A stretch of 63,724 nt of DNA from Ruminiclostridium sp. (GTDB taxonomy: Bacteria > Bacillota > Clostridia > Oscillospirales > Ruminococcaceae). Within the stretch, counting starts at the first letter, position 1. Every line of letters starts with the position of its first letter. Both the position numbers and the translations under genes were made by a program. The stretch lies in the NCBI GenBank assembly GCA_017942025.1, contig JAGAVH010000072.1, positions 1 to 63,724 of the forward strand, read 5' to 3'. Shown here piece after piece: positions 7,270-60,471 of the stretch. The notes under the pieces were generated by a model, which worked only from the letters and a program-made list of their open reading frames with translations, was not told the origin of the DNA and did no database searches.

Positions 7270-7516
7270 CAATGATATCCGTTCCTTGCGGAACGGGTGA
7301 TATATCTTCGATATGATATCCACCTTCGGTGGATGATATATGCCTACGGCATATGATGGAACGGATATTATTATGAGCGAAGCGAATAACAAGGTTCCGG
7401 GGCACCCGCTCAAAATCTTTGATTTTGTCAGCGGGTCGGGTTCTTATATCATGCTTGCGTAGCAAGTATATCATACGGCAACGCCGTATATCATATCGCG
7501 CAAGCGATATATCATT
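7270..7516. repeat. mirror-symmetric micro-hairpin array after tRNA-Ser
   Basis: Stem-loops on the left half (CCGTTCC/GGAACGG, ATATC-TTC-GATAT, CCACC/GGTGG, TGCC/GGCA) are separated by TGATAT-type spacers. Those on the right half (CTTGC/GCAAG, ACGGC/GCCGT, ATCGC/GCGAT) are separated by ATATCAT, the reverse complement. Between the halves is a hairpin with arms CCCGCT and AAAATC (about 7405-7435). The array begins immediately beyond the tRNA-Ser terminator. No gene is seen. Confidence 0.75.
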
Positions 7517-10011: not shown

Positions 10012-12390
10012 ATGTATAATGTTGTAAAAAGAAACGGAAAAGTAGTTGAGTTTGACATCAGCAAGATTTCCGAAGCTATAGCAAGAGCCTTTGAAGCTCA
10101 GGAAAAAGAATATAACCCCAATATCATTGATTTTTTATCGTTAAAGGTTACGGCTGATTTTGAGCCTAAAATAGAAGATCACCTTATCGCAGTGGAGGAC
10201 ATTCAGGACAGCGTTGAATCTGTTCTCGTTCAGGCCGGTTATGCTGATGTTGCAAAGGCATACATCCTTTACAGAAGACAGAGAGAAAAGCTTCGTAATA
10301 TGAAGTCTACAGTTCTTGACTATAAGAACATAGTAGACAGCTATGTTAAGGTTACAGACTGGAGAGTTAAGGAAAACTCTACAGTTACCTACTCTGTAGG
10401 CGGTCTTATTCTTAGCAACTCAGGCGCTATCACAGCTAACTACTGGTTATCTGAAATCTATGATGATGAAATCTCCAATGCACACAGAAACGCAGATATC
10501 CACATCCACGATCTTTCAATGCTTACAGGCTACTGTGCAGGTTGGTCCTTAAAGCAGCTTATCAAGGAAGGTCTTGGCGGTGTTACAGGTAAGATTACCT
10601 CTGCTCCTGCAAAGCATCTTGCTACACTGTGCAACCAGATGGTAAACTTCCTTGGTATTATGCAGAACGAATGGGCAGGCGCTCAGGCATTCTCATCCTT
10701 TGATACATATCTTGCTCCCTTCGTAAAGGCTGACAACTTAAACTATGATCAGGTTAAAAAGTGCATAGAATCCTTTATCTACGGTGTAAACACACCCTCT
10801 CGCTGGGGTACACAGGCTCCCTTCTCAAATATCACTCTTGACTGGACAGTACCTAACGACCTTGCAGAGCTCAATGCTATCGTTGGCGGCGTAGAGATGC
10901 CCTTCAAGTACAAGGATTGCAAGAAAGAAATGGATATGGTAAACAAGGCGTTTATCGAAACTATGATTGAAGGCGACGCTAACGGCAGAGGCTTCCAGTA
11001 TCCTATCCCCACATATTCAATCACCAGCGACTTTGACTGGTCTGAAACAGAAAACAACAAGCTTCTCTTTGAGATGACTTCAAAATACGGCACACCTTAC
11101 TTCTCAAACTACATCAACAGCGATATGGAGCCCAGCGATGTACGTAGTATGTGCTGCAGACTGAGACTTGACCTTCGTGAGCTTCGTAAGAAGTCAGGCG
11201 GCTTCTTCGGCAGCGGCGAAAGCACAGGTTCTGTGGGCGTTGTAACAATCAATATGCCCAGAATCGCTTATCTTGCAAAGGATAAGGAAGAATTCTACAA
11301 GAACCTCGACAGACTTATGGATATCTCCGCACGTTCACTGAAAATCAAGAGAGAAGTTATCACAAAGCTTCTCAACGAAGGACTTTATCCTTATACAAAG
11401 CGTTATCTCGGTACTTTCAACAACCACTTCTCTACTATTGGTCTTGTTGGTATGAACGAGGTTGGTCTTAACGCAAAATGGCTGAAGAAGGACCTTACAC
11501 ACGAGGAGACACAGGAATTCACCAAGGAAGTATTAAACCACATGAGAGAAAGACTTTCCGATTATCAGGAAAAGTACGGCGATCTCTACAACCTCGAAGC
11601 TACTCCTGCTGAATCCACAAGCTTCCGTCTTGCAAAGCACGATGTAAGTCACTACCCTGACATTGTAACAGCTACAGACAGAACTCAGGGCGGCGCTCCC
11701 TACTATACAAACTCTTCTCACTTACCTGTTGGTTATACAGACGATATCTTTGCGGCTCTCGATATTCAGGATGAGCTTCAGACACTCTACACATCAGGTA
11801 CTGTATTCCATGCGTTCCTCGGTGAAAAGCTCCCCGACTGGAAGTCAGCGGCATCTCTTATCCGCACCATCGCTCAGAACTACAAGCTTCCCTACTATAC
11901 ACTTTCTCCCACATATTCAGTATGTAAGAATCACGGTTATATCGCAGGCGAAGTTAATGTTTGTCCTGAATGCGGTGAAGTAACAGAGGTTTACAGCCGT
12001 ATCACCGGCTACTATCGTCCCGTTAAGAACTGGAACGACGGTAAGGCTCAGGAATACAAGGAAAGAAAGGTATATAACCCTGAAAAATTTGACGGCAAGA
12101 CACCTTCAAAGGTGGCAACTGCTGAAGAAAAGCACGAGGAGACTACCTGCAAGGCAGAGGCTGACAAACTGATGCTCTTTGCTACCAGCACCTGTCCCAA
12201 CTGCAAGATGGCGGCACACTTCCTTGAAAAGGCAGGCATTGAATTTGAAAAGGTAATGGCAGACGCCGATCCCGAACTTGCAAAGCAGTTCGGAGTGCTT
12301 CAGGCTCCCACTCTTGTAAGAGTTGCAGACGGCAATGTAGAAAAGATAGTAAACCTTTCAAACATCAAGGCATTCGTCGAAAACAACTAA
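10012..12390 (+). CDS. nrdD: class III ribonucleotide reductase fused to a glutaredoxin-like domain
   Basis: NrdD reduces ribonucleoside triphosphates with a glycyl radical under anaerobiosis. The 792 residues comprise an N-terminal ATP-cone (about 1-95, starting with NVVKRNGKVVEFDISKI), the catalytic barrel, a zinc site (CKNHGY and CPECG at about 638-652), the glycyl radical loop RITGYY (about 662), and a C-terminal extension from about 718 beginning LMLFATSTCPNCKMAAHF. The CPNC motif and PTLVRV identify the extension as a glutaredoxin/NrdH-like domain, probably the internal reductant. NrdR boxes precede the gene. A 336-bp element is inserted in its terminator. Confidence 0.95.
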   Translation: MYNVVKRNGKVVEFDISKISEAIARAFEAQEKEYNPNIIDFLSLKVTADFEPKIEDHLIAVEDIQDSVESVLVQAGYADVAKAYILYRRQREKLRNMKSTVLDYKNIVDSYVKVTDWRVKENSTVTYSVGGLILSNSGAITANYWLSEIYDDEISNAHRNADIHIHDLSMLTGYCAGWSLKQLIKEGLGGVTGKITSAPAKHLATLCNQMVNFLGIMQNEWAGAQAFSSFDTYLAPFVKADNLNYDQVKKCIESFIYGVNTPSRWGTQAPFSNITLDWTVPNDLAELNAIVGGVEMPFKYKDCKKEMDMVNKAFIETMIEGDANGRGFQYPIPTYSITSDFDWSETENNKLLFEMTSKYGTPYFSNYINSDMEPSDVRSMCCRLRLDLRELRKKSGGFFGSGESTGSVGVVTINMPRIAYLAKDKEEFYKNLDRLMDISARSLKIKREVITKLLNEGLYPYTKRYLGTFNNHFSTIGLVGMNEVGLNAKWLKKDLTHEETQEFTKEVLNHMRERLSDYQEKYGDLYNLEATPAESTSFRLAKHDVSHYPDIVTATDRTQGGAPYYTNSSHLPVGYTDDIFAALDIQDELQTLYTSGTVFHAFLGEKLPDWKSAASLIRTIAQNYKLPYYTLSPTYSVCKNHGYIAGEVNVCPECGEVTEVYSRITGYYRPVKNWNDGKAQEYKERKVYNPEKFDGKTPSKVATAEEKHEETTCKAEADKLMLFATSTCPNCKMAAHFLEKAGIEFEKVMADADPELAKQFGVLQAPTLVRVADGNVEKIVNLSNIKAFVENN

Positions 12391-12399
12391 ATAAAATTT

Positions 12400-12427
12400 A
12401 TGCCCTTGCAGTTTTCTGCAAGGGCAT
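12400..12427. repeat. 28-bp direct repeat, left copy (nrdD terminator stem)
   Basis: The stem ATGCCCTTGCAG, loop TTTT, then CTGCAAGGGCAT, 10 bp after the nrdD stop. It is identical to 12764-12791, but here the stem is followed by CAGCGTG with no T-tract. Read as the left target duplication of the inserted element. Confidence 0.85.
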
Positions 12428-12763
12428 CAGCGTGTAGACAAAGTCTTGTCTACACGCTGTCAGACGATGAAAAACGCACGTCAGCCATTGATTTTGACCT
12501 GTTCGGTCAAAATCGTCAACCGCCCCGACAGGCGTACATACGGCAAGGACGCCGTAAAGCGAACACCAAAAGTGCATCACGACGATGCACAACAAAGTGT
12601 TCGCATAAGTTACAGTTGAGGGGCGGATGACGAAGTAAGCAAAAATGCTTTAGGGAAGCCGTTTCCGGCTTCCCTAAACTTTTGTATCAACATTTTTATT
12701 TGTCCGTATGATAAGTATAAATTTTAACGCATTTTTGCGGTGCGTGAGTTTGTCTTCAGTCTG
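12428..12763 (+). mobile_element. terminator-inserted MITE-like element, copy 1
   Basis: A 336-bp non-coding element bounded by CAG and CTG. The two ends form imperfect inverted repeats (consensus CAGNNTGWAGACAAASTC, 14 of 18 matching). The left end is itself a perfect 14-bp hairpin (12428-12459). Inside are TTTTGACC/GGTCAAAA, a long-range stem CCGCCCC (12520-12526) with GGGGCGG (12620-12626) enclosing ACGGC/GCCGT, GCGAACAC/GTGTTCGC and GTGCATC/GATGCAC, then the 13-bp hairpin TTTAGGGAAGCCG (12649 on), and ACGCA/TGCGT near the right end. The right 143 bp differ from the second copy (60206-60447, inverted) at about nine positions. Perfect 28-bp direct repeats flank it. No transposase is encoded. 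Confidence 0.85.
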
Positions 12764-12791
12764 ATGCCCTTGCAGTTTTCTGCAAGGGCAT
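12764..12791 (+). terminator. 28-bp direct repeat, right copy, with T-tract
   Basis: The same stem-loop as 12400-12427, here followed by TTTTAT, so this copy keeps the functional terminator form. It now ends any nrdD transcript that reads through the element, and it lies just before the trxB promoter. Confidence 0.85.
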
Positions 12792-60181: not shown

Positions 60182-60205
60182 CAAGGGGCTGAGTTCAGCC
60201 CCTTA
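60182..60205. repeat. 24-bp direct repeat, left copy (nifU terminator stem)
   Basis: CAAGGGGCTGA and TCAGCCCCTTA around GT, 4 bp after the nifU stop, identical to 60448-60471. It is followed by CAGACTG, not by a T-tract. Confidence 0.85.
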
Positions 60206-60447
60206 CAGACTGAAGACAAACTCACGCACCGCAAAAATGCGTAAAGTTTTATACTTATCGTACGAGCAAATAAAAATGTTGATACAAAAGTTTAGGGAAG
60301 CCGAAAACGGCTTCCCTAAAGCATTTTTGCTTACTTCGTCACCCACCCCTCAATGTACTTCTGTACACCTATCGGGGTGGTTTCCTCGTCTGCGTGCGTT
60401 TTTCATCGTCTGACAGTGTGTAGACAAATGACTTTGTCTACACACTG
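60206..60447 (-). mobile_element. terminator-inserted MITE-like element, copy 2
   Basis: A 242-bp copy of the element at 12428-12763, in opposite orientation. On the minus strand it starts CAGTGTGTAGAC (15-bp hairpin, 60447-60414) and ends CTTCAGTCTG. The internal stem is CCACCCC (60343-60349) with GGGGTGG (60374-60380), and TTTAGGGAAGCCG forms the same 13-bp hairpin (about 60291-60320). Compared with copy 1 it lacks about 100 bp of extra hairpins in the variable middle. Perfect 24-bp direct repeats flank it. Confidence 0.85.
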
Positions 60448-60471
60448 CAAGGGGCTGAGTTCAGCCCCTTA
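60448..60471 (+). terminator. 24-bp direct repeat, right copy, with T-tract
   Basis: Same stem-loop as 60182-60205, followed by TATTTTTCC, the complete terminator form that presumably served nifU before the insertion. Confidence 0.85.

Follow-up and report, generated by a model that had tools for sequence, protein, structure and literature searches.

A short non-coding element of Ruminiclostridium lies between whole copies of terminator hairpins, probably as a non-autonomous partner of hairpin-duplicating IS1182-family elements

The window (the whole stretch of 63,724 nucleotides of a Ruminiclostridium genome that was analysed) raises the question of how a short piece of DNA can have come to lie between two complete copies of one terminator. 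The piece is 336 bp long (12428-12763), its first bases are CAG and its last CTG, and its terminal 18-mers, CAGCGTGTAGACAAAGTC on the left and CAGACTGAAGACAAACTC on the right (reverse-complemented), match at 14/18 positions. The direct repeats on either side, ATGCCCTTGCAGTTTTCTGCAAGGGCAT at 12400-12427 and at 12764-12791, are identical over 28/28 bp, and each consists of a 12-bp stem with a TTTT loop. The gene downstream of the element is thioredoxin-reductase-like (TIGR01292, 331 bits, just below the cut-off of 343). An earlier sequence-only reading had described the segment with its 18-bp imperfect inverted repeats and had taken the perfect 28-bp repeats to be the terminator hairpin of nrdD, and on both points our analysis agrees with it. 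G numbers below denote genomes (G075, G077 and G028 are relatives of the window's genome, G427 belongs to a different genus of the same family) and L numbers denote loci. The features are as follows.

10012 to 12390, plus strand: nrdD (NCBIfam NF006126 and TIGR02487), upstream of the element; its terminator is the insertion target
12400 to 12427, no strand: nrdD terminator hairpin, left copy of the target-site duplication, 28/28 to the right copy; single identical copy in G075
12428 to 12763, plus strand: MITE-like non-autonomous element, CAG...CTG, 336 bp, with a hairpin copy at each side; 32 complete copies in its own genome share its ends; site empty in G075, G077 and G028
12428 to 12445, plus strand: left terminal inverted repeat CAGCGTGTAGACAAAGTC, 14/18 to the right repeat and 16/18 to the left end of the G427 IS1182-family element
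12428 to 12459 (left 32 bp), no strand: perfect 14-bp hairpin at the element's left end, equal to two left-end repeats head to head
12649 to 12678, no strand: internal 13-bp hairpin, TTTAGGGAAGCCG / CGGCTTCCCTAAA; comparable ones in L022, L027 and L029, among other copies
12746 to 12763, minus strand: right terminal inverted repeat CAGACTGAAGACAAACTC, read on the minus strand, 14/18 to the right end of the G427 element
12764 to 12791, no strand: right copy of the duplicated nrdD hairpin, then a T-rich tract
60182 to 60205, no strand: hairpin copy beside the second element, 24/24 identical to 60448-60471
60206 to 60447, minus strand: second family copy within the window (L022), 242 bp, between 24-bp hairpin repeats; empty in G075
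60448 to 60471, no strand: hairpin copy on the other side of the second element

The longest mechanical reading frames of the 336-bp element are 65 and 76 aa, and an IS1182-type transposase gene is absent from it. By its sequence the element is not itself an IS1182 insertion sequence and would rather be a non-autonomous partner that works like one.

The element is one of many in its genome. The assembly (G000) is a fragmented MAG of 2.53 Mb in 80 contigs, 83% complete. A DNA search with the element gave 73 matches, 40 of the 80 first-look candidates being scored, and the end motif, searched as a pattern, occurred 60 times forward and 59 times in reverse, its reversed control not once in either direction. 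From the stretches fetched, 32 complete canonical copies of 239-337 bp were catalogued, truncated or decayed copies being left out; the 68 rows printed were these 32 in both orientations and four spurious pairings, which were dropped. In 32/32 copies both element ends have, 0-3 bp away, a hairpin whose stem is 7 bp or longer, and the left hairpins are 32 different sequences. When single ends were counted, truncated and decayed copies included, 87/92 flanks held a hairpin (43/44 left, 44/48 right), compared with 22/2970 random window positions holding a left-side hairpin of the same kind. Further copies whose flanks fold as hairpins, which the sequence-only reading had advised looking for, are thus abundant. 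The five flanks with no qualifying hairpin are in L023, L100, L104 (two ends) and L105; the one in L023 has a hairpin with one mismatch, below the score limit used, and the one in L105 looks like a chance motif inside a gene. At least four A upstream of the left hairpin or at least four T downstream of the right one were found within 8 nt in all 32 copies, as expected for terminators. The element showed no preferred orientation towards the T-rich side (13 copies T-rich on the right, 15 A-rich on the left, 4 ties; n = 32, a hairpin of 26 bp being assumed for the seven copies with no aligned duplication). Short, non-coding, bounded by terminal inverted repeats and a target duplication, and present in 32 complete copies, the element is, as judged from these sequences, a non-autonomous MITE. 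In other species of the genus, G019 (L076, L082, L085) and G026 (L069), there are diverged families of elements whose ends are of this kind and which likewise lie between near-identical hairpins.

In 25/32 copies the hairpin on the left can be aligned with that on the right as a 21-35-bp target duplication, exact in 12 and with one to five mismatches in 13. The sequence-only reading had counted further copies lacking flanking direct repeats as evidence against an insertion, and such copies do occur in part, since seven (L002, L005, L099, L012, L101, L013 and L110) have no straightforward duplication. Three of them (L002, L005, L099) carry the same hairpin on both sides, diverged in loop or stem. 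Two others carry two different hairpins for which a partner exists at another copy: L012 has partners on one side at L108 (36/36 matching) and on the other at L023, and L101 has one at L030 for one side and none found for the other. These mismatched hairpins are such as recombination between copies or assembly misjoining would give. L013 and L110 have unrelated hairpins on their two sides, and no partner was found for either copy. In L027, L106, L002 and L005 the left and right loops differ and the stems are still paired, L027 having a compensated stem pair as well; template switching or selection on the stem are possible causes of the loop differences.

Full-length elements with comparable behaviour were found in relatives at several distances. 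PF13751 was present at E 0.001 in 8 of the 40 genus genomes searched (out of 71 members), the window's own genome not among them. One locus in G060 (L114) holds the end of a transposase gene and an element right end, CAGCTTGTAGAAAAAC, with a hairpin directly after, and a 124-aa transposase fragment from it (P0001) was used as a query. It matched in 8/71 genus genomes and, at E 1e-20, in 31/396 family genomes, with 59 loci in named genomes. Of the loci whose open frame reached 400 codons, 38 had their flanks analysed (one repeat dropped), and 23/38 display an exact or near-exact hairpin duplication. Among the other 15, seven are cut by a contig end, two have no recognised right end, three differ in their left and right hairpins (L228, L142, L149), one lacks the right hairpin (L200), and L136 and L182 are one locus occurring twice, with an 8-bp repeat, TAGCTCAA. 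The single-contig genome G427 has 24 left ends, 20 two-ended copies and an exact hairpin duplication of 22-54 bp in 19/20 of these; its 54-bp palindrome duplication at L271 is the longest seen. The element ends in G427 were first set by direct repeats alone, with the end motif unused. NCBIfam NF033551 identifies IS1182-family transposases here with 406 and 390 bits (cut-off 270), the 406-bit match being that of G427, which also carries PF05598 and PF13751. The G427 element resembles the MITE in its left end (16/18) and in its target duplication, but is autonomous, about 1525 bp long and resident in a different genus of the same family.

A sample of the phylum widened this set. An IS1182 match at E 1e-60 was present in 60/299 genomes, and among the 30 loci fetched a hairpin duplication was seen at eight (L279, L280, L282, L283, L289, L293, L300, L302). 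Six loci (L278, L286, L287, L288, L292, L294) have GGGGCTGTC-like ends and no target duplication, and may represent a branch that replaces hairpins, as IS1272 does. Two of the 30 have a 9-bp repeat, one (L285) has different hairpins, and for 11 the ends were not resolved by the script. The last two, L298 and L305, have CAG-like ends with hairpin duplication absent, and CAG-like ends alone consequently do not predict it. At L298 the insertion sequence, whose ends are CAGACTGTGTGAAAAC, sits between two inverted-repeat arms, GGGGACGG and CCGTCCCC, with no duplication, and is perhaps an insertion into, or replacing, a loop. Hairpin duplications also occur on plasmids, of 17 bp in Brevibacillus (L341) and of 19 bp in Rhizobium NLR16a (L340). 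In Rhizobium WYJ-E13 (L339) a shared hairpin was 24 bp in one analysis and inexact at the CAG boundary in another, and an Arthrobacter record (L338) gave no clear ends. In G081 (L126, about 1928-1956) one hairpin stands between two IS1182-type ends facing it, as if it were a shared target.

The sequence data thus display full-length IS1182-family elements with the same hairpin-duplicating outcome as the MITE and with very similar, not identical, ends. The likeness to IS1182 elements that the sequence-only reading pointed to is upheld by them, and they are full-length elements carrying a transposase, for which it had advised looking. In a tree of 45 of the 48 transposases chosen (the motif filter removed L293, L296 and L298), one clade of 27 rows takes in 20 of the 22 duplicating rows, L196 and L300 lying outside; its other members are five unscored rows, one row whose two hairpins differ and one whose repeat is 8 bp long. 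The branches of L170 and L196 are very long, probably from a wrong reading frame picked by the script, and the tree therefore gives no demonstration of a single origin for the duplicating elements.

For DDE transposases the length of the target duplication is usually typical of the enzyme. Here it was measured in 39 insertions of full-length elements selected for a detectable duplication (19 belong to G427, 6 to the phylum sample and 14 to other loci; L279 and L300 were left out, their CAG ends being unrecognised by the script), the minimum sought being 8, 14 or 15 bp by set, so that very short duplications could escape outside G427. Lengths ranged from 20 to 54 bp (median 28), and 38/39 duplications were exact. 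All were centred on the hairpin dyad, with an asymmetry of 0 in 39/39 when centres were confined to the duplication and in 38/38 when the dyad was searched freely 30 bp beyond either side (L157 was not rebuilt). Duplication length followed palindrome length (Spearman 0.84, n = 39), and on both sides alike the palindrome ended between 1 bp inside the duplication and 6 bp outside it. The duplication began with A in 33/39 and ended with T in 34/39. The 25 aligned duplications of the MITE gave the same picture with more scatter (asymmetry 0 about the dyad in 20/25; rho 0.71 with hairpin length). Judging from these sequences, a fixed stagger does not explain a duplication length that varies, is centred on the dyad and tracks the hairpin. 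Variable length together with exact centring speaks for a target that itself holds the joined positions close to each other, as an extruded cruciform would.

The scheme that we propose is as follows. An IS1182-type DDE transposase, supplied in trans, would bind the CAG...CTG ends and, on each strand, link an element 3' end to the target at the hairpin's 5' foot. The hairpin would thereby be left single-stranded on both flanks, and gap repair would yield one whole hairpin on each side. The enzyme would presumably recognise the junction of the extruded cruciform, where the feet are close whatever the stem length. Each hairpin copy would keep one outer flank, so that the T-rich tract stays attached to a hairpin; for this reason termination is probably largely spared and the insertion nearly neutral. 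We lean, if only slightly, towards the wider view that CAG-ended IS1182 transposases integrate at the four-way junctions of cruciforms extruded in living cells, that the stagger (20-54 bp) is set by the target hairpin and not by the enzyme, that the duplication ends record the position of the cruciform, and that MITEs exploiting this made terminators nearly harmless landing sites genome-wide. The sequence-only reading had suggested a transposase that recognises the palindrome, perhaps as a cruciform. Targeting and duplication of hairpins are borne out by the counts given above (32/32, 25/32 and 39/39 centred), and the extruded cruciform is what we infer from them.

The same element and family could also be at work with a transposase that reads the two-fold symmetry of a linear duplex, for instance as a multimer contacting both arms. 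Dyad centring in 39/39 is expected under either model, the palindrome extends 1-6 bp beyond the duplication on each side in 17/39 so that the joint is not always at the outermost pair, and the preference for an initial A would suit such a reading as well. However, a spacing of the joined positions that varies between 20 and 54 bp with exact centring is hard to achieve for a rigid complex on linear duplex, and no common target sequence was seen by eye besides the A/T at the joint. We regard a linear-duplex target as possible but rather unlikely.

The source of the transposase was approached through the element ends. The MITE ends match those of IS1182-family elements at 16/18 and 14/18 positions in G427, 14/16 in L289, 13-14/16 in L282, 13/16 in L283 and 12-13/16 in G060, and none of 20,000 random 16-mers matched at more than 11/16. 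It is because of these matches of 12-16 bases and the shared target behaviour that we infer mobilisation of the MITE in trans by the transposase of an IS1182-type element. Taken together with the duplications, we would put at close to nine in ten the probability that the element is a MITE of the CAG-ended, hairpin-duplicating part of the IS1182 family, its ends being joined at hairpin feet by a transposase acting in trans.

Mobilisation by another, unrelated transposase family that shares the ends is improbable. It would accord with the own genome (83% complete) giving no match to an IS1182-type transposase with PF13751 (E 0.001), P0001 or NF033551 (E 1e-60), only these three having been sought. 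G028, which also carries the MITE, likewise yielded no IS1182-type transposase, and no transposase gene was seen at the solitary ends inspected in G019, G026, G014, G025 and G028 (three loci in six frames). An intact PF13751 gene in the genus (L113), considered as a lead to a partner, showed no CAG-type ends. Against an unrelated mobiliser stand, besides the end matches and the common hairpin duplication, the IS1182-type remnants in the same genus that have similar ends beside hairpins (L114, L126, L130).

Comparison with sister species shows that insertion was into hairpins that were already there. A search of the genus with the C-terminus of NrdD found 5/71 genomes at E 1e-40, the own genome included. 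At the nrdD site G075, G077 and G028 have one hairpin and no element, and the more distant G078 also has no element. G075 matches the joined window flanks across the junction with the identical 28-bp hairpin. The G077 hairpin (L237) has the same stem with an AAAA loop versus TTTT in G000 and G075, that is, the hairpin inverted, and hairpin loops seem to turn over fast, by flipping or rewriting. With joined flanks, ten more sites were looked for in four relatives, and single-hairpin empty alleles were found at seven of them (L015, L021, the second window copy L022, L033, L035, L039, L109). At L035 the relative's hairpin has another sequence, and at several other empty sites the loop differs. 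The L008 site is occupied in G077 (L320, L328) by a 241-bp insert between two hairpin copies, where the G000 copy is 335 bp; either repeated use of one hairpin or conversion between copies could account for the different inserts. L032 gave split flanks only, 86 bp apart in G077 and too close to hold an element, and L006 gave no informative match in relatives. In total, a single-hairpin empty allele exists at 8/11 sites looked up, and the comparison with empty sites that the sequence-only reading had called for is thereby answered, in sister species rather than strains.

It is highly improbable that the hairpins belong to the element, or that selection built a second terminator beside an old repeat with no duplicating insertion. 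Such a history might be read from the loops that differ within some pairs (L002, L005, L106) and from the unrelated hairpins at four copies, but it is contradicted by 32 different hairpins at 32 sites and by the empty sites, where sister species have a single hairpin, at most sites the same one, and no element. An assembly artefact, for which a fragmented MAG with several of its 80 contigs ending inside copies gives some occasion, is ruled out as a general cause by the 19 exact duplications among 20 two-ended copies of single-contig G427, and chance is ruled out by the one-side background rate of 22/2970.

Long variable repeats are given for IS1182 in ISfinder. Part of the hairpin duplication, including the repeats of the catalogued ISEfa7, may accordingly be known to curators. 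ISEfa7, an IS1182-like element of Enterococcus faecium plasmids, resembles the MITE in its ends, CAGACTGTAGACAAAGTC / CAGACTGTAGACAAAAGC, the first of which is 16/18 identical to each MITE end (counted by eye), and in a 20-bp hairpin duplication (L343, NZ_CP040874). It differs in being full-length (1536 bp) with its own transposase and in its distant host. Two of its many copies were looked at, and in L342 an IS256-family gene interrupts the left flank. The remark in the sequence-only reading that no element with exactly such ends was known needs correction in this light, as CAGACTGTAGACAAAGTC means that the ends are not unprecedented.

Targeting of hairpins is established in the family. IS1272 and TnSha1 of staphylococci are described, in passages of PMC4923244 and PMC5678879, as IS1182-family elements that target hairpins, confirmed transcription terminators among them, with no sequence consensus, and both papers cite a review for the targeting of palindromes by some IS1182 members. 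According to passages of PMC4923244, the stem-loop is deleted or replaced when IS1272 or TnSha1 inserts, and the target is not duplicated; in the MITE, by contrast, the whole stem-loop is duplicated. Replacement of the IS1272 type does not fit the MITE, which has hairpins on both sides in 32/32 copies and one hairpin in the empty alleles. In an excerpt of PMC5678879, Wan and colleagues draw whole-hairpin duplication as a hypothetical pathway b, beside the deletion pathway inferred for IS1272, and as drawn there pathway b is exactly the duplication scheme proposed here. Apart from it, the matches listed from the open-licence literature (including PMC4923244, PMC10969869, PMC9208149 and PMC3281130) contain, in the portions returned, no account of IS1182 elements duplicating whole hairpins, nor of a MITE like this one. 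REP-targeting insertion sequences, as described in part of PMC1525189, also use palindromic intergenic DNA, but their target is one repeat family (REP), whereas the hairpins used by the MITE are unrelated in sequence. We rate as new the MITE family and the hairpin-duplicating IS1182 set with its quantitative rule for length and centring, and as known the targeting of hairpins by the IS1182 family (IS1272).

With a duplication length set by the secondary structure of the target, and with exact centring, the long-standing question of in vivo cruciform extrusion at ordinary terminator palindromes can be put directly to a natural enzyme. The rebuilding of the hit terminator on both sides also suggests a reason why dozens of insertions can be borne by one bacterial genome at little cost. 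With duplicating elements beside the hairpin-deleting IS1272 within IS1182, one family could show how the outcome is switched.

Two minor observations concern the window and its assembly. A Gut-1 RNA (Rfam RF01706, 66 bits) adjoins a tRNA gene at 7270-7344 of the window. Among the contigs of the own genome several end inside element copies (e.g. C8/C67, C65/C46 and C22/C3), and matching hairpins on two contig ends pair those contigs, which could serve for contig ordering.
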